A DNA stretch of 64,000 nucleotides. Source: Luteimonas sp. FCS-9. GTDB taxonomy: Bacteria; Pseudomonadota; Gammaproteobacteria; Xanthomonadales; Xanthomonadaceae. The position numbers and the translations under genes were made by a program. Numbering within the stretch: the stretch's first letter is position 1; each line of letters begins with the position of its first letter. Below the pieces are notes generated by a model. The model worked only from the letters and a program-made list of their open reading frames with translations, had not been told where the DNA came from and did no database searches. Below are positions 4,347-49,219 of this stretch, piece after piece. The stretch is taken from the NCBI RefSeq assembly GCF_001014645.1, contig NZ_LASZ01000013.1:1-64000 (forward strand), in the 5' to 3' direction.

Positions 4347-4685
4347 ATGGCCGCAGGCTGGATCACCGTCGTCGCCCCGTACCTGCCCGAGATCGTGCGC
4401 CTGGCGCGGCCGATCTTCACCCGCACGCCGCCGCAGGCCGACCTCGGCCAGCAGCGGCGGATCGACGTGATCGACGCGCAGATCGGCGAGCTGCAGGACG
4501 CGGCGAGCGTGAACGCCGACTCGATCGCCAAGCTCGCCGCGGACATGCAGAAGACCATCGAGGTGCTGCAGCTCGGCGCCGAGCGCATGGAACGCCGGCT
4601 GATCCTGTCCAACCGGCTGGCCGTGGCCGCCGCGACCGCCGCGGTGTTGGGGTTCGCGATCGCGGCCTACGCACTCGCGCGCTGA
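4347..4685 (+). CDS. Hypothetical protein with coiled-coil and C-terminal membrane segment
   Basis: The start is ATG 4347, seven bases after a GGAGGA ribosome binding site; the frame is open further upstream but without a site. The 112-residue product has a predicted coiled-coil/helical middle (about residues 35-80) and one C-terminal transmembrane helix (about 91-111). No catalytic motif is visible. It sits 22 bases after rlmM and before the DUF808 gene. A tail-anchored membrane protein of unknown role is the best description. Confidence 0.65.
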   Translation: MAAGWITVVAPYLPEIVRLARPIFTRTPPQADLGQQRRIDVIDAQIGELQDAASVNADSIAKLAADMQKTIEVLQLGAERMERRLILSNRLAVAAATAAVLGFAIAAYALAR

Positions 4686-4761
4686 CGTGCGCGCGCGCGT
4701 GACCGCACGCTCACCGGCGTGACGGATACTGCGCGCCGGTCCCCTCTTCCGGCGTCTCCCG

Positions 4762-5703
4762 ATGGCCTCCAGCCTGCTGACCCTGCTCGACGACATCGCC
4801 ACCGTGCTCGACGACGTCTCGGTGATGACCAAGGTTGCGGCGCGCAAGACCGCCGGCGTGCTCGGCGACGACCTCGCGCTGAACGCGCAGCAGGTCACCG
4901 GCGTGCAGGCCGACCGCGAGCTGCCGGTGGTCTGGGCGGTCGCCAAGGGCTCGGCGCGCAACAAGCTGATCCTGGTGCCCGGCGCGCTGGCGATCAGCAC
5001 CTGGCTGCCGTGGCTGGTCACGCCGCTGCTGATGGCCGGCGGCCTGTTCCTGTGCTACGAGGGCTTCGAGAAGGTCCTGCACAAGCTCGTGCACCGCGGG
5101 CGCGACGACGCCGCCAAGTCCGCGCGCACCGCGGCGCTGGCCGCGGCCGACGTCGATCCGGTGGCGTTCGAGCGCGACAAGGTGCGCGGCGCGGTGCGTA
5201 CCGACCTGATCCTGTCGGCCGAGATCATCGCGATCAGCCTGGGCACGGTCGCCGGTCAGCCGTTCGCGACCCAGCTGGGCGTGCTCGCGGGCATCTCCGC
5301 GCTGGTGACGGCCGGCGTCTACGGCCTGGTCGCCGGCATCGTCAAGCTCGACGACGCCGGCCTGGCGTTGACCCACCGCGCCTCGGCCTTCGCGCAGGCG
5401 GCCGGCCGCGCGATCCTGCGCGCCGCGCCGTGGCTGATGAAGGGCCTGGCGGTCGTCGGGACCGCGGCGATGTTCCTCGTCGGCGGCGGCATCATCGCCC
5501 ACGGCATCCACGACGTGGCGACCTGGATCGAGGAGGCCGCGACCGGCCTGGGCGCGCTGCCGACCGTCGGCACCGTGCTCGGCGCGATCGTCCCGACGCT
5601 GGTCAACGCCGCGGTCGGCGTGGTCGCCGGCGGCCTGGCGGTCGCGGTCGTGTCCGGCGTGCGCCGCCTGCGTACGGGCCGGCGCGCGGCGCCGACGGGC
5701 TGA
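4762..5703 (+). CDS. DUF808 family (YedI-like) inner-membrane protein
   Basis: The 313-residue protein begins with the conserved DUF808 opening (LLTLLDDIATVLDDVSVMTKVAARKTAGVLGDD, quoted only in outline here by its key residues LDDIA and KTAGVLGDD) and has several hydrophobic segments. These include ALAISTWLPWLVTPLLMAGG near residues 75-95 and others near 165-190 and 230-300. The family, represented by E. coli YedI, has no established biochemical function. It is convergent with the small membrane gene that ends at 5721. Confidence 0.85.
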   Translation: MASSLLTLLDDIATVLDDVSVMTKVAARKTAGVLGDDLALNAQQVTGVQADRELPVVWAVAKGSARNKLILVPGALAISTWLPWLVTPLLMAGGLFLCYEGFEKVLHKLVHRGRDDAAKSARTAALAAADVDPVAFERDKVRGAVRTDLILSAEIIAISLGTVAGQPFATQLGVLAGISALVTAGVYGLVAGIVKLDDAGLALTHRASAFAQAAGRAILRAAPWLMKGLAVVGTAAMFLVGGGIIAHGIHDVATWIEEAATGLGALPTVGTVLGAIVPTLVNAAVGVVAGGLAVAVVSGVRRLRTGRRAAPTG

Positions 5704-5720
5704 CCGCGCCGCCGGCCGGC

Positions 5721-6056
5721 TCAGCAGCGCAGGACCGCCCAGGCGCCCCAGACCCAGATGCCGGCCGCCCAGATGGCCAGCATCGCGACGGTCGCCAGCA
5801 ACATCGCAGCGACGACGAGCGCGGCCGACCGGCCACGCGTCCTGCGGTACGCGAGCCACGGCACCGCGGAGCCTGCGACCACCGCCAGCACCAGGCAGGC
5901 GACGCCGAGGAACGCGAACAGGCCCGCGTCGTCGCTGACCGCAGGACATGGCTGCAGCGCGAACGCCGGCGACGCGCCCAGCCACGCCGCCCCACCGGCC
6001 GCGGCCCGCAGGCGCGCGACCGCGCGCCGGTTCAGCGGCCGGCGGCGCGCGCCCAC
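5721..6056 (-). CDS. Small membrane protein with predicted signal peptide
   Basis: The frame encodes 111 residues from GTG 6056, which lies 25 bases inside the 3' end of the upstream hydroxylase gene. The Arg-rich n-region, hydrophobic core and ASPAFA cleavage-like site resemble a signal peptide, although a shorter start inside the leader cannot be excluded. Two hydrophobic helices follow (about 45-65 and 75-105) with a basic loop YRRTRGR between them. No family is recognised. The composition is clearly that of a membrane protein, unlike the shadow frames around it. Confidence 0.5.
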   Translation of the reverse strand: MGARRRPLNRRAVARLRAAAGGAAWLGASPAFALQPCPAVSDDAGLFAFLGVACLVLAVVAGSAVPWLAYRRTRGRSAALVVAAMLLATVAMLAIWAAGIWVWGAWAVLRC

Positions 6057-7210
6057 AGCAGGTTGCGCAGCGGCGGCAGCGCCTGCGCGATGCCCAGCGC
6101 ATGGCTGCGCAGCAGCGTCGGCGCCAGCGCGTCGGTGGAGTAGACGCGGTTGATGGCGTCGAACGCATAGGCGGCCACGGTGTTGTCGCTGCGCCGCGTG
6201 CGCGCCCAGCGCGCGAGCCGGTGCGGCGCATCCCAGGCCGCGCCGCGGCCGCGCGCCTGCGCCACCGTCGCGGCCAGCCCGGCGACGTCGCGCAGGCCCA
6301 GGTTCACGCCCTGCCCGGCCAGCGGGTGGACGACGTGCGCGGCATCGCCGACGACCAGCACGCGCCCGGCCAGCTGGGTGTCGACGAGCTGGCGACGCAG
6401 CGGGAACGCCGCGCGCGCCGACACCGGGGCCAGCCGCCCGAAGCGGCCCTCCGAGGCCCGCGTCAGCGCGTCGGAGAACGCGGCGTCGTCGAGGCCGCGC
6501 ACGCGCGCCGCCTCGTCGGCCGGCAGCGTCCAGACGATCGAGCAGCTGCCGTCGCCGCAGGGCAGCAGCGCCAGCGGGCCGGTCGGCAGGAACCGCTGCC
6601 AGGCGGTGTCGGCGTGCGGCCGTTCGCCGCGCACGTAGCCCACGACCCCGCTCTGGCCGTAGTCGTGCGCCTGCGCGCCGATGCCGGCCAGCCGGCGCAA
6701 TGCCGAGCCGGCACCGTCGGCGGCGATCGCCAGCCGCGCTTCGATCCGGGGGCCGTCGGCCAGCCGCAGCGCGACCGAGCCGGCGGCCGTCTCCAGCGCC
6801 TCGACCGTCGCCGGGCTGCGCACCTCGACCCCCGCCGCGGCCAGTCGCGCCCAGAGCCGGTCGACCAGCAGACCGTGCTCGACGATCCATCCCAGCTCGC
6901 GCATGCCCAGCGCATCGGCGTCGAAGACCAGTTCGCTGCCGCCGCCTGCGTCCCAGACCCGCATGCGCCTGTAGGGATGCGCACGCGCGGCGCGCACCGC
7001 GTCCCAGGCGCCGACCTGCGCCAGCAGGCGCGCATTGTCGTGCGCGAACGCATAGACGCGCAGGTCCGGCGCCGCGGGTGTCCAGCCGGCCGGCGGCCGG
7101 GCCTCGACCAGCACCACGTCCAGGTCCTGGGCGGCGAGCGCCAGCGCGCAGGCCGCGCCGACCACGCCGCCGCCGACGACCACGACGTCGCGCACGCCGC
7201 GCCGGCTCAT
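6032..7210 (-). CDS. UbiH/UbiF/VisC/COQ6-family FAD-dependent hydroxylase (UbiI-like)
   Basis: A flavoprotein monooxygenase of the ubiquinone ring-hydroxylase family, 392 residues from ATG 7210. It has the N-terminal FAD-binding VVGGGVVGA motif, a middle segment ADGAGSALRR of the family, and the second FAD motif VVGDAAHVVHPLAGQGVNLGLRD. The start overlaps the ubiH stop as ATGA; an ATG 18 bases upstream is possible but less likely. Together with the upstream gene it probably performs the aerobic C5 or C1 hydroxylations of ubiquinone synthesis at the inner membrane. The exact ring position is not certain. Confidence 0.88.
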   Translation of the reverse strand: MSRRGVRDVVVVGGGVVGAACALALAAQDLDVVLVEARPPAGWTPAAPDLRVYAFAHDNARLLAQVGAWDAVRAARAHPYRRMRVWDAGGGSELVFDADALGMRELGWIVEHGLLVDRLWARLAAAGVEVRSPATVEALETAAGSVALRLADGPRIEARLAIAADGAGSALRRLAGIGAQAHDYGQSGVVGYVRGERPHADTAWQRFLPTGPLALLPCGDGSCSIVWTLPADEAARVRGLDDAAFSDALTRASEGRFGRLAPVSARAAFPLRRQLVDTQLAGRVLVVGDAAHVVHPLAGQGVNLGLRDVAGLAATVAQARGRGAAWDAPHRLARWARTRRSDNTVAAYAFDAINRVYSTDALAPTLLRSHALGIAQALPPLRNLLWARAAGR

Positions 7211-8415
7211 GCCGACGCCCCGCGGCACAGCGCCGGCACGTCGCCGCGGTAGCCCATCGCGCCACCGGCCAGCAGCGCCTGCAGGCCGCGGTCGCCGTCG
7301 AGCGCCAGCAGCCCCGCGCTGCGCAGCGGCCGCAGCAGCGGCGACGGGTTCGCGGTCAGCCGCGCCAGCCCGTCGGAGAACGCCAGCGTGCGCGTGCGGT
7401 CCTCGCGCCGCCGCGTCGCCCAGGCCGCGAGCAGCGCCGGCGCGCCCGGATCGCCGCCGTCGGCGGCCAGCTCGGCCAGCGTCAGCGCATCGCGTAGCCC
7501 GAGGTTGAAGCCCTGCGCCCCGATCGGGTGCAGCGTCTGCGCCGCGTTGCCGACCAGCGCCGCACGCGCGGCGGTCGTGTGCTCGGCGACGACGCGGCGC
7601 AGCGGGTAGCGGCTGCGCGGGCCGACCGCTTCGAAGCGGCCGGCCCGCCAGCCGAACACGGACTGCACGCGGGCCAGGAACGCGGCGTCTTCGAGCGCGG
7701 CGACCGCGTCGGCGGCGTCGCGATCGACGCCGTGGACCAGTCCGTAGTGGCGGTCGCCGCGCGGCAGCAGCGCGGTCGGGCCGTCGTCGGTCAGGCGCTC
7801 GAACGCGCCGCCGTCCGGCGCGCGCGCCGCGCGCAGCCGGGCGACGAACAGGTCCTGCCGGTAGTCGTGTTCGATGGTGTCGATGCCCAGGGCCGCGCGC
7901 ACCGTGGACCCGGTGCCGTCGGCGGCGACGACCAGCGCCGCGCCGATCCGCAGTTCGCCGTCGCCGGTCGCCACGCGGACCGTCCGCAGGCCATCGGACT
8001 CCGCTTCCAGGTCGACGAAGCGCGCCGGCCGGTAGCGCGTCAGGTGCGCCAGTTCGCCGAGCCGCGCCTCCAGCGCCTGGCCGAAATCGCGGGCGACGAC
8101 GACCTGCCCGAACTGGTCGCGGCCGTAGTCGGCGGCGTCCAGCCGCAGACGGCCGAAGTCGCCCCGGCGGCTGACGTGGATGCGGCGGATCGGGCCCGGC
8201 GGCATCCGCAGCTTCTGCAGCACGCCCAGCGCGGTCAGTGCGTTGACCGTGGCCTCGGCGAAGCTGAGGTTGCGCTCGTCGAAGACCGGCGGCATCGCGT
8301 CGGGCGGCGTGGCCTCGACCAGCCCGGTGTCGATGCCGGCGCGGTCGAGCGCGATCGCGAGGCTGGCGCCGACCAGCCCGCCGCCGACGATCAATACAGC
8401 ATGGGAGTGCGTCAT
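7207..8415 (-). CDS. ubiH: 2-octaprenyl-6-methoxyphenyl hydroxylase
   Basis: The 402-residue flavoprotein starts at ATG 8415 with the FAD-binding LIVGGGLVGASLAIAL motif. It contains the family's ADGTGSTVRAALG segment and the GNAAQTLHPIGAQGFNLGLRD motif, where UbiH proteins commonly carry GN in place of GD. This favours UbiH over UbiI/UbiF. It acts in aerobic ubiquinone biosynthesis. The frame extends 90 bases further upstream but those residues do not resemble the family. The gene is coupled to the next hydroxylase by ATGA and is divergent from the DUF6580 gene. Confidence 0.9.
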   Translation of the reverse strand: MTHSHAVLIVGGGLVGASLAIALDRAGIDTGLVEATPPDAMPPVFDERNLSFAEATVNALTALGVLQKLRMPPGPIRRIHVSRRGDFGRLRLDAADYGRDQFGQVVVARDFGQALEARLGELAHLTRYRPARFVDLEAESDGLRTVRVATGDGELRIGAALVVAADGTGSTVRAALGIDTIEHDYRQDLFVARLRAARAPDGGAFERLTDDGPTALLPRGDRHYGLVHGVDRDAADAVAALEDAAFLARVQSVFGWRAGRFEAVGPRSRYPLRRVVAEHTTAARAALVGNAAQTLHPIGAQGFNLGLRDALTLAELAADGGDPGAPALLAAWATRRREDRTRTLAFSDGLARLTANPSPLLRPLRSAGLLALDGDRGLQALLAGGAMGYRGDVPALCRGASA

Positions 8416-8507
8416 GGCCGGATTGTAGCGGCAGGCGCCCGCGCCGACCGTTGTGCGGGTGTCGCCTGTCTGCGGCGCCGCCGGCCGCCTGCCCGGGCGA
8501 TCCACGC

Positions 8508-8513
8508 TAAGAT
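8508..8513 (+). promoter_or_regulatory. Candidate -10 box (TAAGAT) before the DUF6580 gene
   Basis: TAAGAT lies 30 bases before the ATG at 8544 in the 128-base divergent spacer. The same hexamer occurs at a similar distance upstream of gshB. No clear -35 is seen. Confidence 0.25.
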
Positions 8514-8543
8514 CGGCCGATACCTCCGCACGCCCAGTCCGCC

Positions 8544-9146
8544 ATGCCTGCCCGCACGAAAACTCCCGATCGCGCGATCGCCCCTGGCCCGACCGTGCTG
8601 GCCGGCATGATCCTGCTCGCCGCGTTGTCCAGGCTGATGCCGCTTCCCCCGAACTTCGCGCCGATCGAAGCCATGGCGCTGTTCGGCGGCGCGTACTTCG
8701 CCAGGCGATGGCTGGCGCTCGCCGTGCCGCTGCTCGCGATGGCGCTGTCGGACGTGGCGCTGGGCATCGCGCGCGGCGGCACGTATGTCGAGTACTTCAC
8801 GACGCCGGCGTACCTGCCGAGCATCGCCGCGAACTACCTGTGCATCGCGCTGACCTGCGTGCTGGCGTTCGGGCTGCGCGGCCGCGTGACGGGCGCTCGT
8901 GTGCTGGGCTACTCGCTCGCCGGATCGGTGCTGTTCTTTTTGATCAGCAATTTCGCGATCTGGCTGAGCGCCTCGCTCAACCCCGCCTATCCCGCCTGCA
9001 GCCAAGGCCTGCCGGCGTGTTACGCGGCGGCGCTGCCGTTCTTCAAGACGACGCTGCTGAGCACGTTGTTCTACGCGGCGCTGCTGTTCGGCGGTTTCGC
9101 GCTCCTGCGCGAGCGGCTTCCCGCGCTGCGCCCGCAGACGGCCTGA
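8544..9146 (+). CDS. DUF6580-family integral membrane protein, putative transporter subunit
   Basis: The 200-residue protein has about five transmembrane segments and the typical DUF6580 opening, in which SRLMPLPPNFAPIEAMALFGGA marks the first helix-loop (key residues R, P-P-N-F, P, A, F-G-G). The family is annotated as putative transport proteins and resembles substrate-binding membrane subunits of energy-coupling-factor importers. The next gene, 18 bases downstream, is a cobalamin adenosyltransferase. This makes a corrinoid-related substrate an attractive but unproven inference. Confidence 0.75.
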   Translation: MPARTKTPDRAIAPGPTVLAGMILLAALSRLMPLPPNFAPIEAMALFGGAYFARRWLALAVPLLAMALSDVALGIARGGTYVEYFTTPAYLPSIAANYLCIALTCVLAFGLRGRVTGARVLGYSLAGSVLFFLISNFAIWLSASLNPAYPACSQGLPACYAAALPFFKTTLLSTLFYAALLFGGFALLRERLPALRPQTA

Positions 9147-9164
9147 TCGCCAGTTGCATCCGCG

Positions 9165-9716
9165 ATGGGCCATCGTCTCTCCAGGATCTACACCCGCACC
9201 GGCGACGACGGTTCGACCGGTCTGGGCGATGGCAGCCGGACCGGCAAGGATGCGCTGCGGGTGGCCGCCTACGGCACCGTCGACGAGGCGAACTCGGCGA
9301 TCGGGCTGGTGCTCGCCGCGCCGCTGCCCGACGACGTCCGCGCCCTGCTGACCGGGCTTCAGCACCGGCTGTTCGATCTCGGCGGCGAGCTGTGCATCCC
9401 CGGCCACGCCGCGATCGAGGATGCGGACGTCGTCGAACTCGAAGCGCAGCTCGACCGCTACAACGGCACGCTGCCCCCACTGCAGGACTTCGTCCTGCCC
9501 GGCGGCGGCGAGGCCGCGGCGCGCTGCCACCTCGCGCGCACCGTCGTGCGCCGCGCCGAGCGCGAGACCGTGGCGCTGTCGCGCGCCGAGTCCGTCCGGC
9601 CGCAGGCGCTGCGCTACCTCAACCGGCTGTCGGACCTGCTGTTCGTGCTGGCCCGGGTCCTGGCCCGCGCCGACGGCCACGGCGAGGTGCTCTGGCGGCA
9701 CGGGGAGCGAGCCTGA
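9165..9716 (+). CDS. PduO-type ATP:cob(I)alamin adenosyltransferase
   Basis: This 183-residue enzyme transfers the adenosyl group of ATP to cob(I)alamin, making coenzyme B12. The family's ATP-binding N-terminus YTRTGDDGSTGLGDGSR is present, followed by the VDEANSAIG motif and the C-terminal RYLNRLSDLLFVLAR helix lining the active site. The internal LPGGGEAAARCHLARTVVRRAER segment is also typical. It lies between the DUF6580 membrane protein and a deacetylase-fold gene, all on the plus strand with short spacers. Confidence 0.93.
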   Translation: MGHRLSRIYTRTGDDGSTGLGDGSRTGKDALRVAAYGTVDEANSAIGLVLAAPLPDDVRALLTGLQHRLFDLGGELCIPGHAAIEDADVVELEAQLDRYNGTLPPLQDFVLPGGGEAAARCHLARTVVRRAERETVALSRAESVRPQALRYLNRLSDLLFVLARVLARADGHGEVLWRHGERA

Positions 9717-9717
9717 C

Positions 9718-10668
9718 ATGCACCATCCGATCGGCTTCGGCGGCGATCGACGGCAGGTGCCGGTGTTCTCGCACCCCGCCTGCCTCGACCACGACACCGG
9801 CCCCGAACACGCAGAACGCCCGCAGCGGCTGGCGGCGGTGATCGAGGCGCTGCGGGCGTCGTTCCCGGACCTGGACCTGCGCCAGGCGCCGGCCGCGACC
9901 CGCGGCCAGCTGCTGCGGGTGCATGACGAGGCCCTGCTGCGCACGGTGCTCGAATCGCAGCCGACCGGGCGCATCCCGCTCGATGCCGACACCGTACTCT
10001 CGCCAGGTTCGGCCCAGGCCGCGCTGCACGCGGCCGGCGCCGGGGTCGCCGCGGTCGACCTGGTCTGCAACGGCGAGTTGCGCCGGGCGTTCTGCGCCGT
10101 GCGCCCGCCGGGCCACCACGCCACCGCCGACATCGCAATGGGCTTCTGCCTGTTCAACAACATCGCCGTGGCCGCGGCCCATGCGCTGGACCGCTACGGG
10201 CTGATGCGGGTGTCGATCGTCGATTTCGACGTGCACCACGGCAACGGCACCCAGGCGATCTTCGAGCAGGAGCCGCGGGTGCAGTACCTGAGCTCGCACC
10301 AGTTGCCGCTGTTCCCCGAAACCGGCCTGCGCCGCGAGCGCGGCGTGGGCAACATCGTCAACATCCCGTTGGCGCCGGGCACCGGCAGCGCGCGCTTCTG
10401 CGAGGCCTGGCGCGAACGGATGCTGCCCGAGATCGACGCCTTCGCGCCGCAACTGGTGCTGGTCTCGGCCGGGTTCGATGCCCATCGCCTCGACCCGCTG
10501 GCGCAGCTCGAGCTCGAGGCCGAGGACTTCGCCTGGCTGACCCGGGAGCTGGTCGCGCTGGCCGACCGCCACGCCGAGGGCCGCCTGGTGTCGATGCTCG
10601 AGGGTGGCTACGACCTGCAGGCGCTGCGGGCGTGCAGCGTGGCCCACCTCCAGGCGCTGCCCGGCTGA
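9718..10668 (+). CDS. Histone deacetylase-fold amidohydrolase
   Basis: The ATG at 9718 gives 316 residues typical of the bacterial class II HDAC/acetylpolyamine amidohydrolase family. The catalytic His pair lies in PPGHHA (133-134). Zinc ligands are Asp171 and His173 in DVHHGNG and Asp254 in AGFDAH, and the transition-state Tyr is 298 in EGGYD. All are intact, so the protein should be an active zinc deacylase. The substrate in bacteria of this group is not established. It follows the adenosyltransferase after one base. Confidence 0.92.
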   Translation: MHHPIGFGGDRRQVPVFSHPACLDHDTGPEHAERPQRLAAVIEALRASFPDLDLRQAPAATRGQLLRVHDEALLRTVLESQPTGRIPLDADTVLSPGSAQAALHAAGAGVAAVDLVCNGELRRAFCAVRPPGHHATADIAMGFCLFNNIAVAAAHALDRYGLMRVSIVDFDVHHGNGTQAIFEQEPRVQYLSSHQLPLFPETGLRRERGVGNIVNIPLAPGTGSARFCEAWRERMLPEIDAFAPQLVLVSAGFDAHRLDPLAQLELEAEDFAWLTRELVALADRHAEGRLVSMLEGGYDLQALRACSVAHLQALPG

Positions 10669-38720: not shown

Positions 38721-39194
38721 CTAGGCCACCACTCCGCGCAGCGCGCGCTCGATCGCATCGAGGTCCGGGATCTGCACGACCTCCTCGCCCAGTCGCACGC
38801 GGGCGCGTACCGCGAACGGCAGCGACGCGCCGCCCTCGGTGCCGGCATCGACCAGTTGGCCGGGCGAGACCGTGACCAGGCGCGGGAAGCCGTGGGTCAC
38901 CAGCGCGAAGTACGGCAGGCGCGCATCGCCGCCGAGCGCCTTGAGCACGATCACCTTGCTGCCGAGCCCGGCCGCATCGTCTTCCTGGCCCGACAGCGTC
39001 GCGAACGCGACCAGCGGCAGGCGCCAGCCGCGCCAGCGCAGCCGGCCCGGCAGCCAGGCCGGCGCCGCCGGGACCGGTTCGGGCGCCGAATACGACAGCA
39101 CCTCGGAGATCGTCGCGTTCGGCAACAGCAGCGGGGTCGAGCCGACCCGGATCAGCACGCAGCGGATGTCGTGCGCGGCGTTCACAGCGTCCAT
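38721..39194 (-). CDS. chpC: CheW-like protein of the Pil-Chp pathway (ChpC)
   Basis: The 157-residue protein is a single CheW-type SH3-like domain: IRVGSTPLLLPNATISEVLS at the start, GRLRWRGWRLPLVAF in the middle, and VVQIPDLDAIERAL at the end. In P. aeruginosa ChpC is a second CheW adaptor that feeds additional receptors into ChpA. It overlaps the CheB-like gene by 13 bases at the end of the cluster, matching the P. aeruginosa gene order. Confidence 0.82.
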   Translation of the reverse strand: MDAVNAAHDIRCVLIRVGSTPLLLPNATISEVLSYSAPEPVPAAPAWLPGRLRWRGWRLPLVAFATLSGQEDDAAGLGSKVIVLKALGGDARLPYFALVTHGFPRLVTVSPGQLVDAGTEGGASLPFAVRARVRLGEEVVQIPDLDAIERALRGVVA

Positions 39195-40549
39195 GACCCG
39201 TCCTCGATCGCGGGGCCGGGCGCGGCGTCGGGCATCCAGCGCTCGACGAGCCACGCGGCGATCTGCGCCGGCGCGCCGCTCCGGCCGCCGCGTGCGACCA
39301 GCGCGTGCGTCGCGGCCGGATCGTAGCAGCCCGGCTCGGACTGCGCGGCGACCAGCGCGCCGTGCCATGCCGGCCCCGTGGCCAGTTCGACCAGCGCGGG
39401 ATCGGCGCCGCTGAGCAGCAGCCACGCGCTGTCGTCGGGCGGCACCGCCCGCGCGAGCGCCGCGAGGTCGCCGTCGGCGGCGAAGCGCAGCTGCCCGCCG
39501 GCGCGCAGCGGTAGCAGGTCGGGCGGCAGGAAGTAGACCTCGCCCGGCGCGATCGTCATGCCCGCCTCGGCCAACTGCACCGGGGCGGCGGTCACGCGCG
39601 CCATCTGGCGCACGAGCCGGTCGTAGCGCCCGCCGTCGAGGCGCAGCCGCACCAGGACCGGACGCGGGAAGCCCTCGGGCAGCGCGGCCAGCAATTGCCT
39701 GACTGCATCCGGACCGCCCAGGCCGCCGTCCACGAGCACCAGGCCGCGCTGCGGGCCCTGTCCGTAGCTGTCGGCATCGGCCAGCGACAGGCCGGCGATC
39801 CGCTGCTCGAGCTCGGCGAGGTCGGTCGCCGGCTTGGCCGGTGCCAGCGACGCGTCGGCGTCGGGCGTGGCGGCGAGCCCGCGGAACGACGGCAGCGCGT
39901 CGAGGTCGGACGCCGGCGGGGCGGACGTTGAGCCGGCGTCGGCATCGGCCGGCGCGTCGAGCGATGCGAGGCCGGCGGCGTCGGGCAGGTTCGCGTCGTC
40001 GTCCGGGTCGCGCACGGGCGCGAACGGGCCGTCGTCGAGTGCCAGCACGAACGCGGGCGGCGCCGGCGGGCCGTCGGGCGGCTCGCCGTACTCGGCGGCC
40101 ACCGGGTCGAACGCATGGGCGGCGCCGTCGGCACGCGGCGCGGCCGGTGCGGGCGCGATCGATGCGGCATCGACGTCCATCGCACCGGCACCCGGCGGCA
40201 GCGCGTCGTGGCGCAATCGCAGCTTGACGGCGAGATGGCGGACCCAGCGCGCGGCGTCCCAGCCGCTGCGCTCGAGCACCAGCGCGGTCTCCTCGAACAC
40301 CACGATCCGCCCGGGCCGTTCGAGCGCCGGCGCGAGCGCGTCCAGGGCGTCCTCGACCGCCGGCTCGAGCGCGACGACGATCGCCTCCGGGGCGAGCGCG
40401 TCGAGGGCACGGACGTCCGCGGCCAGCGGGTCGACGGGCCGCAGCACGTCCGCGCCCGCCTCCACCAGCCCCTCGACGATCCGATCGCAGGCCGGCCCCG
40501 GCCGGGCCAGCACGACCACGCGGGTCGCGGGCGCTGCGCGCTCAGCCAT
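39182..40549 (-). CDS. CheB/ChpB-like protein with degenerate methylesterase domain
   Basis: The 455-residue protein sits where chpB (a CheB methylesterase) lies in P. aeruginosa. Its C-terminal half aligns by eye with the CheB catalytic domain (APGEVYFLPPDLLPL is recognisable). However, the nucleophile motif GASTGG is replaced by DGGLGG, the His of the QHM-type motif by a Leu-Arg-Leu stretch, and the GMGxDG Asp region by LLSGADPAL. The N-terminal REC-like part lacks a phospho-acceptor Asp. A long acidic linker (about 120-240) joins them. It is probably not a methylesterase. Confidence 0.8.
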   Translation of the reverse strand: MAERAAPATRVVVLARPGPACDRIVEGLVEAGADVLRPVDPLAADVRALDALAPEAIVVALEPAVEDALDALAPALERPGRIVVFEETALVLERSGWDAARWVRHLAVKLRLRHDALPPGAGAMDVDAASIAPAPAAPRADGAAHAFDPVAAEYGEPPDGPPAPPAFVLALDDGPFAPVRDPDDDANLPDAAGLASLDAPADADAGSTSAPPASDLDALPSFRGLAATPDADASLAPAKPATDLAELEQRIAGLSLADADSYGQGPQRGLVLVDGGLGGPDAVRQLLAALPEGFPRPVLVRLRLDGGRYDRLVRQMARVTAAPVQLAEAGMTIAPGEVYFLPPDLLPLRAGGQLRFAADGDLAALARAVPPDDSAWLLLSGADPALVELATGPAWHGALVAAQSEPGCYDPAATHALVARGGRSGAPAQIAAWLVERWMPDAAPGPAIEDGSWTL

Positions 40550-43500
40550 CGTCGCGCTCCGGTCCGAGCAGCGCCTGCACGTGACGCAGCAGCTCGGACT
40601 CCTGGTACGGCTTGCCGAGGTAGCGGTCGACGCCGATCTCCAGCGCGCGCTCGCGGTGCTTGTCGCCCGTGCGGGAGGTGATCATCATCAGCGGCAGCTC
40701 GCGCAGCCGCGGATCGGCCTTCATCCGCATCGCCAGTTCGTAGCCATCCATGCGCGGCATCTCGATGTCGAGGAGTACGAGGTCGGGGATGCGCTCGTCC
40801 ATGCGCTCGAGCGCGTCGACGCCATCCTTCGCGGTCACCACTTCCAGCCCCTGCCGTTCCAGCGCGCGGCCGGTGACCTTGCGCATCGTGATCGAATCGT
40901 CGACCACCAGCACCAGCGGCACCGCGCGCGCGCCGGACGCGGCCGGCGCATCGGTCGCCTCGGCCGGTGCGTCCGTCGTCCGCTGCGCGGCCTGCCGGCG
41001 CGCCAGCGGCGCGATGTCCAGGATCACGACCACGCGGCCGTCGCCCATGATCGTGGCGCCGAAGATGCCCGGGATCGACGTGACCTGCGGGCCGACCGGC
41101 TTCACGACGATCTCGCGGTTGCCCAGGATCTCGTCCACCGCCACGGCGGCCCGCAGTTCGCCGGCGCGGATCAGCAGCAGCGGCATCTGCAGCTGGCCCT
41201 CGGCGCGCGCCGGCGCCTGGCCGACCAGACGGCCGAGGTCGTGCAGGTCGTAGTCCTCGTCGCCGTAGCGGTAGCCGCCGCCGGCGCGCAGCGCGTCGCG
41301 GGCGATGCGTCCCACGCCGCGCACCGAGGCGATCGGGACCGCGAACGTGGTCTCGCCGATGCGCACGAACGCGGCCTGGGTCACCGCGAGCGTCTGCGGC
41401 AGGCGCAGCACGAACGTGGTGCCGGCGCCGTCCTGCGAGCGGATGTCGACACTGCCTCCGAGCTGGCGCACTTCGCGGGCGACGACGTCCAGCCCGACGC
41501 CGCGACCGGCCACGTGGCTGAGCGCGGTCGCGGTCGAAAAACCGGGCTGCAGGATCAGCGCGTCCAGGTCGCCCTGCGCGATCTCCGCATCCGGCGCCAG
41601 CAGGCCCCGCGCCTGGGCGCGGCGGCGGATCGCGGCGCGGTCGAGACCGGCGCCGTCGTCGGCGACCTCCAGCACGATCTCCGAACCCTCGCGGCGGACC
41701 GCGATCCGGACGCCGCCCTCCTCCGGCTTGCCGGCCGCCCGTCGCGCCGCCGGCGATTCGAGCCCGTGCGCGACCGCATTGCGCAGCAGGTGCTCGAGCG
41801 GCGACACCATGCGTTCGAGCACGTTGCGGTCGAGCTCGCCCTGGGTGCCGGCCAGATGCAGCTGCACCTGCTTGCCGGTGTCCTGCGCGGCCTGCCGGAC
41901 CACGCGGCGCAGGCGCGGTACGAGGCCGTCGAACGGGACCATGCGCGTGCGCATCAGTCCTTCCTGGAGATCCGAGCTCACGCGCGACTGCTGCTGCAGC
42001 AGCGATTCGTAGTGCCGGGTCTGGTCGTCGAGCGTCTGCTGCAGGCTGTCCAGGTCGGCGGCGGTCTCGCCCAGCGCGCGCGACAGCTGCTGCAGCGTCG
42101 AGAAGCGGTCGAGTTCCAGCGGGTCGAACGCGACGTCGCCGGCGTCGCCCTCGCGCCGGTAGCGCGCGACGATCTGGGCCTCGGTCTCGATGTCGAGCCG
42201 GCGCAGCTGGTCGCGCAGGCGGTCGTTGGTCTGTGCCAGTTCGAGCATCGCGCCGCGGAACGTGCCGAGTTGCTGTTCGAGCCGCGCGCGGTAGATCGCG
42301 ACCTCGCCGGCGTAGGTGACCAGGCGGTCGAGCAGGCCGGCGCGGATGCGCACCTGTTCCTGCGGTCCGCGCACGCCGTCCTCGTCGCCCTCGGCCGCGA
42401 CCTCGGCAACCGGCAACGGCGCCGACAGCGGCGCGAGGACCGCACGGGGCGACGCAGCGCCGGCCGCGTCCGCGGTCTGCTCGCGGGCCGCGGCGTCGCG
42501 TGCGGTCGCGACGAATGCCTCGACCAGTGCCGGCGACGGCCCGACCGCCAGGCGCCCGCCTGCGCGCACGACCATCGCGTGCAGCCGATCGAAGCCGCGC
42601 TCAAGCAGCGCGAGTTCGTCGCGGCGCAGCGCCTGGCGTCGCTCGGCGACCGCTTCGAGCAGCGTCTCCATGGCGTGGCCGAGGTCGCCGACGGCCATCA
42701 GCCCGGCCATCCGCGCGCTGCCCTTGAGCGTGTGCAGGCCGCGCTGGAGGCCCGCGATCGCCGCGCTCGCGCCGGGATCCTCGCGCAGCAGCGCCAGCCG
42801 CGCGTCGGCGTCGTCGAGCAGGTCGATGCCTTCCTCGACGAAGATGTCGACCAGTTCCGGGTCCAGGCCGGCCAGGTCGAGCGGTCCGTCGGGATCGCCG
42901 TCGGCATCCAGGCCAGGCGTCGCCGGACCCGGCACCGCGTCGGGGTCCTCGGCGGACGCGCTCGCCACGGCGGGGACAATCGGGGCGTCCGGTGGACGAT
43001 CGTCGGCGCGCGTGTCGGTGACGTCGGTGGCGTCGGTCGTCTCGGCCGCGTTCGCCGCGTCGGGGGCACCATCGGCCGGCGCGCTCGCCCGCTCCACGGC
43101 GCGCGATGCCAGCGTCTCGTAGCGGCGTCGCTCGGCGGCGAGGACGCCCGCATCGATCGCCGCCTGCCGCTGCTGCGCGGCCCGCGTGTGTTCGCGATGC
43201 GCCGTGTCGAGGCGTGCGGCCTCGGCACGCTCCGCCTCGAGCCGCTCGGTCTCCCGCCGCTCGCGCTCCAGGCGTTCGGCCTCGGCGCGTTCCGCTACCT
43301 CGCGCGCCGCCTCCGCGCGTGCGCGTTCCCGGCGCTCCGCCTCGAGCCGCTCGGTCTCGAGGCGCTCGGCGTCGAGCCGCTCCGCTTCCAGTCGCTCGAT
43401 CGCGGACGCCTCGTCGTCCGCGATCGGCGCGTCGGGTTCTGCGAAGTCGTAGACCGGCGCGGGCGGCGCCCCGAGACGGTCGCGCGCGACGCACAGCCGG

Positions 43501-45800
43501 GCCGCGAGCACCGGCAGCGAGGGAATGCGCGGGTCGTCGTCGTGCAGGCGCACGAGCGTCTCGCGCAACGCCTGGCGCAGTTCGTCGATCGCGTCCACCG
43601 CCTCGGGGTCGGGCGGGGACGGCGCGGCGACCAGGCGACGGGCGTAATCCTCGGCCGGCCCCAGCAGCAGTCCGACGGCAGGGACCTCGGCCACCGCGAA
43701 CGCCCCGTGCATCGTATGCAGCGCGCGCAGCAGGCGCTCGACGTCGAAGGCGTCGCCGGCGCGGACCGCCGCGAGCCAGGCATCGACCGTATCCAGGTGC
43801 GCGCTCGCATCGGCATCGAGGATCTCGAGCAGCAGCGCGTCGATTCGCGCCGGCACCGTTTCCGCGGGCGGCCCGGCCTGCGGCGCCGCTGTCGCGTGCG
43901 CCGGCGCGCGGGTAGGCAGGGTCGGCAGGGTCTCGTCGCCGGCCGCGATGCGTGCGATCGCATCGGCGAGCGCGTCCACGTCGAGCGACAGCGGCGCCTC
44001 GTCGCGCAGCGCCGCCTCCAGCGCCGGCAGCGCGCGCGCGGCCAGCATCACCGCCGCCACGACCGCGGGGCTGGCCGGGCGCAGGCCGTCGATCACCCGG
44101 TTGAGCAGGGATTCGACCGCCCAGGCGAACTCGCCGAGCTCGAGCGCGCCGACCAGCCGTCCGTTGCCCTTCAGCGTGTGGAACACGCGGCGCAGCGGAC
44201 GCAACAGCTGGGGATCGTCGGGACGTTGCCGCCAGTCGGGCAGCAGCGTGTCGAGATGCGCGATCTCGTCGGCCAGTTCCTCGAGGAAGATCGCCCGGAT
44301 CTCGTCGTCGATGTCGCCGGCCACGGGCGCAAAGCCGCCCCGTTGCGCGATGTCGGGCGCCGTTTCGGGCTGAAGCCCGTGTTCGGGCTCGGACGCGACC
44401 GTCGCGGCGTCGCCGGTTCCGGGCACCGCCGCGGGTCGTCCGTCGATCTGCGGCGGCGCGTCGCGGTCGACGCGGCCGTCGGTCGCCGCGTCGGGCACCG
44501 GCCAGTAGCCGAGCGCCTCGAGGCGGGCGCGCGCCAGCTCGAGGCTGCCATCGCGATCGGCGCGCTGCTCGCGCAGCGCCTCGAGATGGACCTCCAGGCT
44601 CGCGACCGCGTCGGCGAAGGTCTCGAGCTGGTGCGCGTTCGGCACGTGGCGCCCGCCGAGCAGCTCGCGGTCCACGTACAGGCGCACGCCCGACAGGCAG
44701 GCGGCGGCCTGCGGCAGGTCGAGCATCGCCAGTGCACCGGCGACCTCGTCCAGCAGGCGCGGCACCTCGCGCAGCGCATCGTGGTCCCACCGGGTCTCGA
44801 CGAAGGCGACCAGCGCCTGGCGGGCGTCGGCGAAGCCGGCGATCGCCTCGCGGATCGCGACCGCCTTCGACTGCTGTGCCTCGGCGGCGAGCGTGCCGTC
44901 GCCGGTCGCGTTGCCCAGTTGCGCGACCTGTTCGTCCAGCGTGGCATCGACGTAGAGCAGCGCCCCGGCGATGTCCAGCAGCGCGGCCTCGTCGGCCGGG
45001 GCCGCGCCGTCAGCGATCGCGCCCAGCGCCTCGCGCTGCTGGCCGACGACCGCGCCCGCGGCGTCCAGGCCGATCATTCCCAGGGTGTCGGCGACCCGGC
45101 CCAGCAGCGTCGCCTGCGGCCGCAGCGCCGCGACGTCGCGCGCACCGGTGCGCAGGTGCAGGTCCAGCGCGTCCTTGACCCGCAGCAGGTCGTCCTTGAC
45201 CGCGGCCGACACCGTGTCGAGCAGCGCGCGGTTGCGGCCGGCCAGGCTGCCGCGCGCGTGCTCAAGCTCGGCGGCGCTCGGCGCCTCCTCCCCGGCCCCG
45301 AACGCCTCGCGCAACGCGTCGAGCGCCTCGGCCGGGACGCTGTCGTCGCCCTCGGCGTCCGCAGCCGCGGCATCGAACAGCATGCGTTCGTGCAGCGCCG
45401 CCGCGCCGCGCGCGGCGCGCAGTTCGTTGAGCAGCGGCAACAGCACGATCGGGATGTCGCGATGGCCGCCCTGCAGCCGCTCCAGGTAGTCGGGCAGCAG
45501 CAGCAGGCCGCGCAGCAGCGCCGAGGACGCCGCGTCGCGGTCGTCGACGGCCCCCTCGTGCAGCGCATCGGCCAGCCGTTCCATCTCCCCGGCCACCAGC
45601 GCGGGCGCGTGCAGCTCGACCATCCGCAGCGTCCCGGCCGCCTGGCGCAGGCAGCCGGCGCACTGGCGCAGGCGGGTGCCGTCGTCCGGCGCCTCGACGT
45701 ACCGTTCCAGCTCCATCCGCGCCTGGCGCAGCACCGCGTCGAGCTCGGGCTTGATCCAGCCCAGCATCGTGTGGTCGATGGCGTCGCGCAGCCCGCTCAT
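40542..45800 (-). CDS. chpA: Hybrid chemotaxis kinase ChpA (CheA type) of the type IV pilus pathway
   Basis: The 1752-residue kinase has an N-terminal FimL/Hpt-like helical region (1-430) and three Hpt domains, with His541 (HTLKGNGR), His695 (HTMHGA) and His1023 (HTLKGSAR). An Arg/Glu-rich helix runs 800-895. A dimerisation segment (about 1150-1290) is followed by HATPase_c with LLRNAVAHGLESP, DDGAGLD and GRGVGLDVV, then a CheW domain (about 1463-1605) and a C-terminal receiver with Asp1678 in LVLLDIEMPRMDG. It phosphorylates PilG and PilH to control pilus extension, retraction and cAMP signalling. It starts 20 bases after pilJ ends. Confidence 0.95.
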   Translation of the reverse strand: MSGLRDAIDHTMLGWIKPELDAVLRQARMELERYVEAPDDGTRLRQCAGCLRQAAGTLRMVELHAPALVAGEMERLADALHEGAVDDRDAASSALLRGLLLLPDYLERLQGGHRDIPIVLLPLLNELRAARGAAALHERMLFDAAAADAEGDDSVPAEALDALREAFGAGEEAPSAAELEHARGSLAGRNRALLDTVSAAVKDDLLRVKDALDLHLRTGARDVAALRPQATLLGRVADTLGMIGLDAAGAVVGQQREALGAIADGAAPADEAALLDIAGALLYVDATLDEQVAQLGNATGDGTLAAEAQQSKAVAIREAIAGFADARQALVAFVETRWDHDALREVPRLLDEVAGALAMLDLPQAAACLSGVRLYVDRELLGGRHVPNAHQLETFADAVASLEVHLEALREQRADRDGSLELARARLEALGYWPVPDAATDGRVDRDAPPQIDGRPAAVPGTGDAATVASEPEHGLQPETAPDIAQRGGFAPVAGDIDDEIRAIFLEELADEIAHLDTLLPDWRQRPDDPQLLRPLRRVFHTLKGNGRLVGALELGEFAWAVESLLNRVIDGLRPASPAVVAAVMLAARALPALEAALRDEAPLSLDVDALADAIARIAAGDETLPTLPTRAPAHATAAPQAGPPAETVPARIDALLLEILDADASAHLDTVDAWLAAVRAGDAFDVERLLRALHTMHGAFAVAEVPAVGLLLGPAEDYARRLVAAPSPPDPEAVDAIDELRQALRETLVRLHDDDPRIPSLPVLAARLCVARDRLGAPPAPVYDFAEPDAPIADDEASAIERLEAERLDAERLETERLEAERRERARAEAAREVAERAEAERLERERRETERLEAERAEAARLDTAHREHTRAAQQRQAAIDAGVLAAERRRYETLASRAVERASAPADGAPDAANAAETTDATDVTDTRADDRPPDAPIVPAVASASAEDPDAVPGPATPGLDADGDPDGPLDLAGLDPELVDIFVEEGIDLLDDADARLALLREDPGASAAIAGLQRGLHTLKGSARMAGLMAVGDLGHAMETLLEAVAERRQALRRDELALLERGFDRLHAMVVRAGGRLAVGPSPALVEAFVATARDAAAREQTADAAGAASPRAVLAPLSAPLPVAEVAAEGDEDGVRGPQEQVRIRAGLLDRLVTYAGEVAIYRARLEQQLGTFRGAMLELAQTNDRLRDQLRRLDIETEAQIVARYRREGDAGDVAFDPLELDRFSTLQQLSRALGETAADLDSLQQTLDDQTRHYESLLQQQSRVSSDLQEGLMRTRMVPFDGLVPRLRRVVRQAAQDTGKQVQLHLAGTQGELDRNVLERMVSPLEHLLRNAVAHGLESPAARRAAGKPEEGGVRIAVRREGSEIVLEVADDGAGLDRAAIRRRAQARGLLAPDAEIAQGDLDALILQPGFSTATALSHVAGRGVGLDVVAREVRQLGGSVDIRSQDGAGTTFVLRLPQTLAVTQAAFVRIGETTFAVPIASVRGVGRIARDALRAGGGYRYGDEDYDLHDLGRLVGQAPARAEGQLQMPLLLIRAGELRAAVAVDEILGNREIVVKPVGPQVTSIPGIFGATIMGDGRVVVILDIAPLARRQAAQRTTDAPAEATDAPAASGARAVPLVLVVDDSITMRKVTGRALERQGLEVVTAKDGVDALERMDERIPDLVLLDIEMPRMDGYELAMRMKADPRLRELPLMMITSRTGDKHRERALEIGVDRYLGKPYQESELLRHVQALLGPERDDG

Positions 45801-45820
45801 GGATCGATCCGCGTCCCGGC

Positions 45821-47842
45821 TCAGGTCGGCAGCTTGAAGTCGGCGACCGAGCGGCGCAGGTCGGCGGCGAGCTGGGCGAGGTTGCCGATCGATTCGGCCG
45901 TCTGGCTGGCGCCGCGCGAGGTCTGCGCGGTGATCGACTGGATCGTGTGCATCGCCTCGGTGATGTTGGTCGCGGCCGAGGACTGCTGCTGCGCGGCCGA
46001 GGAAATGCCCTCGATGAGGTCGGCCAGGCTGGTCGAGACGTTCTCGATCTCGCCCAGCGCGGTGCCCGCGTCCTCGGCCAGGCGCGCGCCGGCGACGACC
46101 TCGGAGGTCGTCTGCTCCATCGAGGTGACCGCCTCGTTGGTGTCGGACTGGATGGTCTGCACGAGCGTTTCGATGCGGCGCGTCGCGCTGGTGGCGCGCT
46201 CGGCCAGGCGCTGCACCTCGTCGGCGACGACCGCGAAGCCGCGGCCCGCCTCGCCGGCCGAGGCGGCCTGGATCGCGGCGTTGAGCGCCAGGATGTTGGT
46301 CTGCTCGGAGATGTCGGTGATCAGCTCGACGATCGACCCGATCTCCTGCGAGCTCTCGCCCAGGCGCTTGATCCGCTTGGAGGTCTCCTGGATCTGGTCG
46401 CGGATCGAATCCATGCCTGCGATCGTCTCGCGCACCACGCCCGCACCCTTGGTCGCGATCCGCACCGAGCGCTGCGCGACGTCGGCCGATTCGGAGGAGT
46501 TGCGCGAGACCTGATCGATGCTGACGGCGATCTCGTTGATGCGGTCGGAGGCCGAATTGATCTCGTGCGCCTGGTGCTCGGCGGCGTCGGCCAGGTGCAT
46601 CGCGGTGGCGCGGGTCTCCTGCGCGCTCGAGGCGACCTGCACCGAGGTGTCGTTGATGGTCTGCACCAGGCTGCGCAGCTGCTCGATCGCGTTGTTGATC
46701 GAGTCGGCGATCGCGCCGGTGATGTCCTCGGTGACCGAGGCCTTGACGGTCAGGTCGCCCTCGGCGAGCGCGCCCATCTCGTCGAGCAGCCGCATGATCG
46801 CTTCCTGGTTGCGGTTGTTGAGCTCGAGCGAGGTCTCGTAGCGCCGGCGCTGCGCACGGTTGAGCTCGGTCACCAGGCCGGCGATCGCGGCCAGCGCCAG
46901 CAGGCCGGCGATGATGCTGATCCACACGTTGCCCAGCAGGCTGCGGTCGCGCAGCGAGCCGAAGGCGGTGAAGGCGTTGAACAGCGCCTCGCTCTCGGCC
47001 AGCAGGCGGTCGGAGCCGGCGACCAGTTCGCCGGCGGCGGCCTGGGCCTGGAACAGCTGCTCGCTGCTGGCGAGGATCGCCTCCAGATCGGTGCGCATCT
47101 GCGCCCAGGCCTCGTCGGCCCGCGCCAGCGCTGCCAGCGCGTTGCCGTTGGTCAGCGCCTGCAGTTCGCGCGTCGGCTCGCCCTCGCGCAGGCCGGTCAT
47201 CACCTGCTGGAAGTCCTCGACGTTGCGGCGCAGGCCCTGGCCGGCGACCGCGGCGGCGCTGCCGCCGGCCTGCACCTCGGTCACCCGGCGCGCCATGTCG
47301 CCGGCGATCACCACCTGGCGCAGCGCCATGTACACCTGCGAGGACGGCGAGCCGCTGCTCGACATCGCCCGCACCAGTTCGTCGAGCAGCGCCTGCAGCT
47401 GGGGGACGCGCTGGCTGAAGCGGTCGGCGTGGCCGGCGAACGCGGTGACCGCGGCCTCGCCGTCGGCCAGCCGCGCCGCGCTCGTGCCCAGCGGCTCCCA
47501 GGTCCGGGCCACCGCGCCGATCGGGCCGGACACGCCCGCGGTCTGGCCGTAGCGGTCCTCGAGCTGCCGGATGTCGCTCTCGATCTGCGCCCGGGTCGCG
47601 TTGAACGCCGCGAACGCGGCGGCATTGCCGCGGGCCGCCTCCGAGCCCTGGTTGGCCAGCCGCTGGCTGTCCACGCGCAGGTTCGAGGCCGAGAAGCTCG
47701 CGCTGCCCAGCTGCGCGGCGCGCCACGTGCCGTAGCCGGTGTTGAGGATGAGGATCGTGCCGGCGACGATCAGCAGCACGACCCAGAAGTTCGTGCCGAG
47801 AATGCGCCGCTTGCCTGCGCTGGGATCGACGACTGTGCTCAT
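45821..47842 (-). CDS. pilJ: Methyl-accepting chemotaxis protein PilJ
   Basis: PilJ is the receptor of the Pil-Chp system, thought to sense pilin engagement at the poles. The 673-residue protein has TM1 (about 20-40), two PilJ-type helical periplasmic modules (about 45-310), TM2 (about 315-335), a HAMP-like region with [22 protein letters not shown], and a cytoplasmic signalling hairpin. The hairpin tip is [28 protein letters not shown] (key residues N, E, R). No CheR-type methyltransferase gene follows, unlike in P. aeruginosa. Confidence 0.95.
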
Positions 47843-47878
47843 GCGTTGCGTTTCCTGATCGTGGTGCGCGCCGCGGCG

Positions 47879-48442
47879 TCAGGCCGCGGCATGTCTGAAC
47901 TCGGGCGTGCGGGTCAGGCGGTCGAGGCTGAAGACCCCCCAGGTCGCATCGGCCTGCGCATAGGCACGGTCGACGAAGTGCGCATAGCGCCCGCCGGCGA
48001 CGCGGTCGGCCGGCACCGCATCCGCCTCGAGAAAGCTGCGCTGGCCGAACAGTTCGTCGATCGTGACCGCGACGTCGCCGCCGGGCTGGCGGACCAGCAG
48101 CACCCGCTGCCCGTCCTGCAGCACGCTGCGCTCGCCCTCCAGGAACTGCCGCAGGTCGACGATCGGCAGCAGCGCGCCGCGCACGTTGCCCACGCCCAGC
48201 ATCCACGGCTGCGCGCCGGGCACCGGCGTGACCGGCGGCATCGGCAGGATCTCGACGACCTCGTCGAACGCCGATGCCAGCAGCCGGCGGCCGATGCGGT
48301 AGCCGACGCCGCGCCACAGGCCCGGCGCGTCCAGCTGCTCGGGCAGGCCGGCGACGTGCGCCAGGCTGCGCCGCTCGTAGCCGGCCAGCAGCGCGAAGGC
48401 CTCGGACGCCGGCCCCGGTGCCTCGGGCACGGTGGCGTTCAC
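47879..48442 (-). CDS. pilI: CheW-type adaptor PilI
   Basis: PilI couples PilJ to the ChpA kinase. The 187-residue protein has a CheW domain with GYRIGRRLLASAFDEVVEIL, PWMLGVGNVRGALLPIVDLRQFL and VAVTIDELFGQRSF. GTG 48442 overlaps the pilH stop (GTGA), so translation is coupled. It lies between pilH and pilJ as in other Pil-Chp clusters. Confidence 0.93.
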   Translation of the reverse strand: MNATVPEAPGPASEAFALLAGYERRSLAHVAGLPEQLDAPGLWRGVGYRIGRRLLASAFDEVVEILPMPPVTPVPGAQPWMLGVGNVRGALLPIVDLRQFLEGERSVLQDGQRVLLVRQPGGDVAVTIDELFGQRSFLEADAVPADRVAGGRYAHFVDRAYAQADATWGVFSLDRLTRTPEFRHAAA

Positions 48443-48804
48443 CCGCCCAGGACCTGGCGGATCTGCGCGATCAGCGCGTCCTCGGTGGGCGGCTTGACGA
48501 TGTAGCCCTTCGCGCCCTGGCGCAGGCCCCACATCCGGTCGGTCTCCATGCCCTTGGTGCTGACGATCACCACCGGGATGCCGGCGGTCTGCGGGTCGCG
48601 CGCCAGCGCGCGGGTGGCCTGGAAGCCGCTCATGCCCGGCAGCACCACGTCCATCAGCACCAGGTCCGGACGCTCGCGCCGGCACAGCTCGAGCCCGTCC
48701 TCGGCGTTGGCCGCCGCGAGCACGACGTGGCCGTGCCGCGCCAGCCACTGGGTCAGCACCGCGGCATCGGTGGGCGAGTCCTCGATCAACAGGATGCGTG
48801 CCAT
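48439..48804 (-). CDS. pilH: Response regulator PilH
   Basis: A single-domain CheY-like regulator of 121 residues with Asp52 in LVLMDVVLPGMSG, the Ser/Thr position in VIVSTKG, and Lys104 in GYIVKPP. In P. aeruginosa PilH opposes PilG, acting on retraction or as a phosphate sink. The ATG at 48804 begins MARILLIEDSPTD; the open frame upstream is not used. It lies ten bases after pilG. Confidence 0.94.
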   Translation of the reverse strand: MARILLIEDSPTDAAVLTQWLARHGHVVLAAANAEDGLELCRRERPDLVLMDVVLPGMSGFQATRALARDPQTAGIPVVIVSTKGMETDRMWGLRQGAKGYIVKPPTEDALIAQIRQVLGG

Positions 48805-48814
48805 GCCTTTCCCC

Positions 48815-49219
48815 TCAGGCGTCGACGTGGGTGCGGATCGCGTCGAGGAGTTCCTCGCGCGTGAACGGCTTGGTGACGTACCGCTCGGCACCGACGATCC
48901 TGCCGCGCGCCTTGTCGAACAGGCCGTCCTTGGACGAGAGCATGATGACCGGCGTGCCGCCGAAGCGCCGGCTGTTCTTGATCAGCGCGCAGGTCTGGTA
49001 GCCGTCGAGGCGCGGCATCATGACGTCGACGAAGATGATCTGCGGCTTCTGGTCGACGATCTTGGCCAGCGCCTCGAAGCCGTCGACCGCGGTCACCACG
49101 TCCGCGCCCTCGCGCCGGAGCAGCGTCTCGGCGGTGCGCCGGATGGTCTTCGAATCGTCGATCACCATCACCCGCAGGCCGTCGAGGCTTCCGGTGGACG
49201 GTCTGTCGTCACTGCTCAT
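48815..49219 (-). CDS. pilG: Response regulator PilG
   Basis: A 134-residue CheY-like regulator with a short N-terminal extension, acidic pair in VMVIDDSKTIRR, Asp65 in IIFVDVMMPRLDGY and Lys117 in YVTKPFT. PilG-P promotes pilus extension and adenylate cyclase activation in P. aeruginosa. It is the first gene of the chemosensory operon, with a strong sigma-70-like promoter upstream. Confidence 0.95.
   Translation of the reverse strand: MSSDDRPSTGSLDGLRVMVIDDSKTIRRTAETLLRREGADVVTAVDGFEALAKIVDQKPQIIFVDVMMPRLDGYQTCALIKNSRRFGGTPVIMLSSKDGLFDKARGRIVGAERYVTKPFTREELLDAIRTHVDA

Follow-up and report, generated by a model that had tools for sequence, protein, structure and literature searches.

The window, meaning the whole 64,000-nucleotide stretch of Luteimonas sp. 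FCS-9 DNA that was analysed, carries the genes pilG-pilH-pilI-pilJ-chpA-chpB-chpC on its minus strand at 38721-49219, without pilK, as read from coordinates and Pfam matches (Table 1). Each of the seven genes overlaps or lies near the next one; chpB shares 8 nt with chpA and 13 nt with chpC. An earlier note on this DNA had claimed that the Pseudomonas aeruginosa gene order is kept here and that no CheR-type PilK gene lies between pilJ and chpA. Coordinates and Pfam assignments agree on the order, and the gap between pilJ and chpA, only 20 bases long, leaves no room for pilK at the position where PilK-positive relatives have a CheR gene. Among named sequences, those of Luteimonas species match the ChpB family profile best.

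Table 1. Genes of the Pil-Chp locus and the codons at the catalytic positions of ChpB (window positions).
Feature	Position	Strand	Evidence
pilG, CheY-like response regulator, 134 aa	48815-49219	-	Pfam Response_reg 92.7 bits
pilH, CheY-like response regulator, 121 aa	48439-48804	-	Pfam Response_reg 89.3 bits
pilI, CheW-like coupling protein, 187 aa, GTG start	47879-48442	-	Pfam CheW 86.3 bits
pilJ, chemoreceptor, 673 aa	45821-47842	-	Pfam MCPsignal 144.2 and PilJ 30.9 bits
pilJ-chpA gap, 20 bases; place of pilK in P. aeruginosa-type operons	45801-45820	-	coordinates
chpA, CheA-type kinase, 1752 aa; Hpt, H-kinase_dim, HATPase_c, CheW, receiver	40542-45800	-	Pfam
chpB, receiver-like domain, disordered linker and dead CheB-like domain (predicted), 455 aa	39182-40549	-	Pfam, model, fold matches
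chpC, CheW-like coupling protein, 157 aa	38721-39194	-	Pfam CheW 54.3 bits
ChpB Gly276 codon, catalytic Ser position	39722-39724	-	alignments
ChpB Arg303 codon, catalytic His position	39641-39643	-	alignments
ChpB Ala385 codon, catalytic Asp position	39395-39397	-	alignments

Gene order and domain types are those of a Pil-Chp (Tfp-class) system, with PilK absent from the locus. The P. aeruginosa pathway has the same order and domain types except for PilK, and sites 1 and 2 of its receptor PilJ are recognisable in the window; in contrast, the window lacks PilK, its ChpB lacks the catalytic triad, and PilJ site 3 reads QS instead of QE. The locus is a variant of the known Pil-Chp pathway and no new kind of system. 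PilK and ChpB are usually treated as the Pil-Chp adaptation pair, and in P. aeruginosa the methylation of PilJ and directional motility depend on both, according to the available text of two studies (PMC12632253, PMC10896506).

The CheB_methylest match of ChpB is weak (44.7 bits against a cut-off of 24; Pfam). An AlphaFold2 model built from 45 aligned relatives has a mean pLDDT of 77.8, with both domains mostly at 91-98 per ten-residue block and a disordered region between them. The best eight Foldseek matches of this model are all solved CheBs, and VIA-align matched it to 3sft, the Thermotoga maritima CheB, with Z 22.2 and an rmsd of 2.1 over 172 residues, and on 1chd with Z 20.7 and an rmsd of 2.7 over 176 residues. 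The solved CheBs (3sft, 1chd/1a2o and 6ymz) thus share with the window protein the C-terminal fold (Z 20-22) and an N-terminal receiver-like domain; what it lacks in comparison are the catalytic Ser, His and Asp, the catalytic-loop segment and the phospho-acceptor Asp of the receiver.

The motif DGGLGG (residues 274-279) had been proposed to stand in place of the CheB nucleophile motif, with the His and Asp of the triad also replaced. Both proposals agree with the alignments, in which the Ser column is occupied by Gly276 and the Ser/His/Asp columns read G/R/A against the canonical CheB of the same genome. A profile alignment to solved CheBs gives the same replacements, and the HRPSVD (HxPSxD) segment is absent from ChpB. 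The structure prediction that the earlier note had suggested as a check confirms the CheB fold; the triad positions, mapped onto it by sequence alignment, are all replaced, although Asp383 lies two residues ahead of the Asp position and could move into that column if the gap were placed differently. The C-terminal domain is therefore predicted to have a CheB fold without a Ser-His-Asp triad. Judged by its sequence, ChpB is a predicted pseudoenzyme, its catalytic residues gone and its fold conserved and under selection. The linker between the two domains, predicted to be disordered, had been called unusual; this does not hold, since the frames of triad-intact orthologues in f3 and f1 are 647-861 aa long.

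To place this protein among its relatives, we used the C-terminus of ChpA as a query against 151 genomes of the order. Of these, 141 matched, and 128 were tabulated with one row each. CheRs beside pilJ scored at least 320 bits with the CheR model and all others at most 259. The PilK-positive rows comprise 31 with an intact ChpB triad, one with ChpB off the contig and none with a broken triad. Among the 95 PilK-negative rows, the triad is broken in 61 and intact in 6, and ChpB is missing in 28; one further genome, G058, is undetermined because its contig starts inside chpA. Within f1, the window's family, 119 genomes were sampled, and 12 were judged PilK-positive by CheR score and place; all 12 were read irrespective of ChpB score. 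The remaining 45 f1 rows stem from earlier searches or were picked among the weak CheB matches listed, so that the f1 rows are not a random draw. In this set all 12 PilK-positive genomes keep the triad, and all 45 PilK-negative genomes have Ser replaced by Gly (44 by alignment, G139 by motif). Among the matches listed, ChpB-like CheB matches of 132-152 bits are confined to the 12 PilK-positive f1 genomes. The aligned dead f1 rows have Gly at the Ser position in 44/44, and His is kept in 10 and Asp in 4 of them.

A quirk of a single genome or an assembly error was rejected, as the same state recurs in 45/45 PilK-negative f1 genomes and in 80/80 named loci. The latter, retained from a set of 269, comprise loci of Luteimonas (18), Xanthomonas (17), Pseudoxanthomonas (14), Stenotrophomonas (10) and others; they were found by two patterns, one containing the Gly motif, and to that extent their Ser state follows from the way they were selected. 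No CheR was found in these 80 loci, 74 of which include pilJ.

Family f12 shows a different picture. Its 15 broken rows comprise 12 with Ala or Thr at the Ser position and His and Asp kept, one with Glu, and two that keep Ser without His. Loci of the first kind (L076, L078, L081, L083, L084, L134, L135 and others) also retain the PSxD segment. To judge from these residues, the decay of ChpB in f12 took a second route, distinct from the first. For one f12 genome, G211, the triad state hinges on the alignment, since it reads S/Q/D (scored broken) in the table and S/H/D in another alignment. G283 (f12) and G040 (f5) keep the Ser and neither His nor Asp. A strict rule by which PilK loss always kills ChpB was rejected, because six PilK-negative genomes keep the triad. 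These six, two or three of which have no CheR match genome-wide, would fit a recent loss of PilK. In L095 (G178), L096 (G210) and L079 (G250) an intact ChpB triad stands with no PilK and no other CheR match in the genome; perhaps PilK was lost recently in these three, or ChpB serves as a glutamine deamidase only. Loci of f2, f7 and f9 (L100-L111, L118-L124 and others) have no pilK or chpB beside chpA, and their PilJ sites are much changed.

In the wider class, 85 ChpA-bearing genomes lie outside the family, and 60 of them were searched for CheB and CheR. A CheB adjoining chpA together with an upstream CheR was seen in 18, and neither was nearby in 40, with adjacency judged by eye and contig ends unchecked in the 40. 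G346 and G380 show only one of the two, the other possibly lying past the contig end. The 18 chpA-adjacent CheBs score 129-171 bits and were judged by place and score, not by triad letters. In this sample of 60 genomes the CheB/CheR pair is kept or lost together, and a retained degenerate ChpB without PilK was seen only in the window's order.

We then asked how these states are distributed over a ChpA tree with 128 rows (quick IQ-TREE, rooted at the midpoint). A branch with SH-aLRT 100 separates the 45 PilK-negative f1 genomes from the rest, the 12 PilK-positive ones among them. A derived f1 clade of 33 rows has PilJ site 3 QE in no row with a readable PilJ; outside it lie 8 of the 10 His keepers and all 7 (7/7) dead-clade rows with site 3 QE. 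Over the whole tree, no more than 6 changes of PilK and 4 of the triad are required. In an independent-pairs test with 4 supported pairs, an average of 2.6 differed the same way, 0.0 the opposite way and 1.4 not at all, with a median p of 0.25; with so few independent losses, the association of PilK with the triad is not significant once kinship is counted. The dead triad and the absence of PilK are a trait of the lineage. From the residues that each group retains we infer an ordered decay, in which the writer was lost first, the nucleophile next and then the rest.

The predicted methylation sites of P. aeruginosa PilJ are Q412/E413, Q623/Q624 and Q639/E640, as given in the available text of PMC10896506. 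Their equivalents in the window PilJ, set by spacing and motif in an alignment that did not include the P. aeruginosa sequence itself, are 408/409 QE (site 1), 619/620 QQ (site 2) and 635/636 QS (site 3). Site 3 reads QE in 30/30 PilK-positive genomes that have a PilJ, in 6/6 PilK-negative genomes with intact ChpB, in 22/54 with broken ChpB and in 0/25 without ChpB. It is changed in 31 of the 38 PilK-negative f1 rows with a readable PilJ and in 74/74 named loci, among them Luteimonas, Xanthomonas and Stenotrophomonas; most f12 rows retain it. Nearly every genome with a dead ChpB retains sites 1 and 2. Site 1 is QE in 53/54 genomes with broken ChpB, and also in 17/25 genomes without both ChpB and PilK, so its retention is no sign of methylation. 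A C-terminal pentapeptide was found on none of 115 PilJ sequences.

A genome-wide search for other CheRs (METHYLTRANSFERASES) located two CheR domains in the Luteimonas sp. FCS-9 genome, both on other contigs (C1 and C35), and a genome free of CheR was rejected on this ground. One belongs to a separate che cluster (L036, C1:66000-85900, at 1080-10159) with tandem receptor genes and a canonical CheR and CheB; two receptors of this cluster end in DWAEF, a CheR-docking-like pentapeptide. The other (L037 on C35, 3397-7545, minus strand) is part of a frame of 1383 aa with both a CheB and a CheR domain, in which a histidine kinase and a receiver can also be seen by eye. Across f1, a CheR match is absent from 38 of the 119 genomes (36 of the 108 good ones), and at least nine of the CheR-less genomes have the Ser to Gly change in ChpB (G065, G071, G085, G097, G105, G106, G113, G134 and G160). 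These results divide what the earlier note had concluded. Its loss of both writer and eraser stands as far as pilK is absent, the whole ChpB triad is replaced and the losses go together across the taxonomic order; it does not extend to the genome, which is not CheR-free. The combination that the note held to speak against its reading, a CheR elsewhere together with an intact triad, is present in its first half only. Its suggestion that PilJ is not reversibly methylated is favoured by the erosion of site 3 in the derived clade and by the CheR-less f1 genomes; with sites 1 and 2 retained and two other CheRs in the genome, the loss of PilJ methylation is not proven.

The CheB-like domain has continued to evolve under constraint. 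Its dN/dS in dead f1 pairs ranges from 0.06 to 0.80 with a median of 0.38 and reaches 1 in none of 47 pairs; the medians are 0.28 for Ser-less f12 pairs (n=17) and 0.29 for intact pairs (n=42), with pairs sharing branches and hence non-independent. The dead domain is thus still under purifying selection, with a value slightly above that of intact pairs that indicates some relaxation. The linker is usually the fastest-evolving part (dN/dS, 17 pairs). Across 35 dead and 10 intact ChpBs, the invariant residues are G96, W102, R104 and K109, where the receiver-like domain ends, and, within the CheB fold, G278, P280, R284, Q315, S380, G381 and Q403. In the pocket of the dead clade (18 sequences), G276, G278, P280, D281, Q315, S380 and Q403 are invariant, and D305 and C408 nearly so.

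Xylella fastidiosa, a member of the same family as the window's genome, has a Pil-Chp operon that is reportedly the subject of Cursino 2011. In the available text of a further study (PMC9956873), pilGHIJL-chpBC are named and pilK goes unmentioned, and deletion of chpB reduces twitching; the comparison with the window covers these gene names and the deletion phenotype. The Pil-Chp cluster of Ralstonia solanacearum is described, in the part available, as lacking chpB and chpC (PMC7056806). There, too, no active eraser would be present, but the gene itself is absent, whereas in the window it is kept and apparently dead. A literature search, with subscription papers mostly outside it, returned no description of an inactive CheB in Pil-Chp or of PilK loss.

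Given these patterns, we consider it probable that methylation adaptation was dismantled stepwise and that ChpB was kept as a non-catalytic part. As the tree suggests, PilK would have been lost first, or together with the ChpB Ser; ChpB would then have lost its Asp and His, PilJ site 3 would have gone later, and PilJ output would no longer be tuned by a dedicated writer and eraser. ChpB itself would persist most likely as an adaptor that still binds PilG, ChpA or PilJ at the pole, possibly via the receiver-like domain, which carries the conserved GW..aRW.RHL.aK helix. This putative role is suggested by the Xylella deletion, by the conserved residues and by the placement of P. aeruginosa ChpB at the leading pole, which is PilG-dependent (PMC12632253, available text). 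More tentatively, with the balance just short of even, we hypothesized that throughout one branch of the Xanthomonas/Lysobacter family the eraser turned into a non-catalytic pole adaptor after the writer had vanished, with pilus steering going on without methylation memory and the loss of PilJ site 3 as a later trace.

An alternative is that reversible methylation of PilJ persists through the CheR and CheB of another chemosensory system in the cell, ChpB having decayed as redundant. The canonical pair of the che cluster, the CheB-CheR fusion and the retained QE and QQ at PilJ sites 1 and 2 would all suit such cross-methylation, but we regard it as unlikely. The f1 genomes without a CheR match, nine of them with the Ser to Gly ChpB, mean that it cannot be a general explanation, though it may still apply in this genome; PilJ carries no pentapeptide, whereas two receptors of the che cluster do; site 1 is kept even where both genes are gone; and the P. 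aeruginosa pathways appear insulated, according to the available text of PMC7698151.

It is somewhat less probable still that chpB is a decaying relic, retained mainly through translational coupling between chpA and chpC. The overlaps with both neighbours would fit such coupling, and the dN/dS lies somewhat above that of intact ChpBs. Against this stand its range below 1 in every pair, the invariant residues in both domains of dead and intact sequences alike, the readable chpB frames of the tabulated dead f1 genomes and the twitching defect of the Xylella chpB deletion, with polarity unchecked (PMC9956873, available text). A hydrolase with an active site rebuilt from other residues, perhaps acting on another substrate, would account for the conserved pocket region in the dead clade, but seems very improbable: neither a new His nor a new nucleophile-acid set is conspicuously conserved, ChpB lacks the HxPSxD segment, and several pocket residues are common to the intact forms and so look structural. 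The split within one family between PilK-positive genomes with intact ChpB and PilK-negative genomes with dead ChpB offers a natural experiment on what ChpB does beyond hydrolysis and on the need for methylation memory. For chpB mutants of this clade, the triad should be checked before they are interpreted as lacking a methylesterase.

The receiver-like domain of ChpB has Ala60 (codon 40370-40372) at the phospho-acceptor position. This column holds Asn in 27/28 and Ser in 1/28 of the PilK-positive ChpBs and Asp in none. The receiver Asp was therefore missing before the triad decayed, and its absence does not tell dead from intact ChpB. It fits the statement, in the available text of PMC12632253, that P. 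aeruginosa ChpB is not thought to be phosphorylated. The same column is Ala, Ser, Val or Leu in 43/43 PilK-negative f1 rows, and Asp in 3/16 PilK-negative f12 rows.
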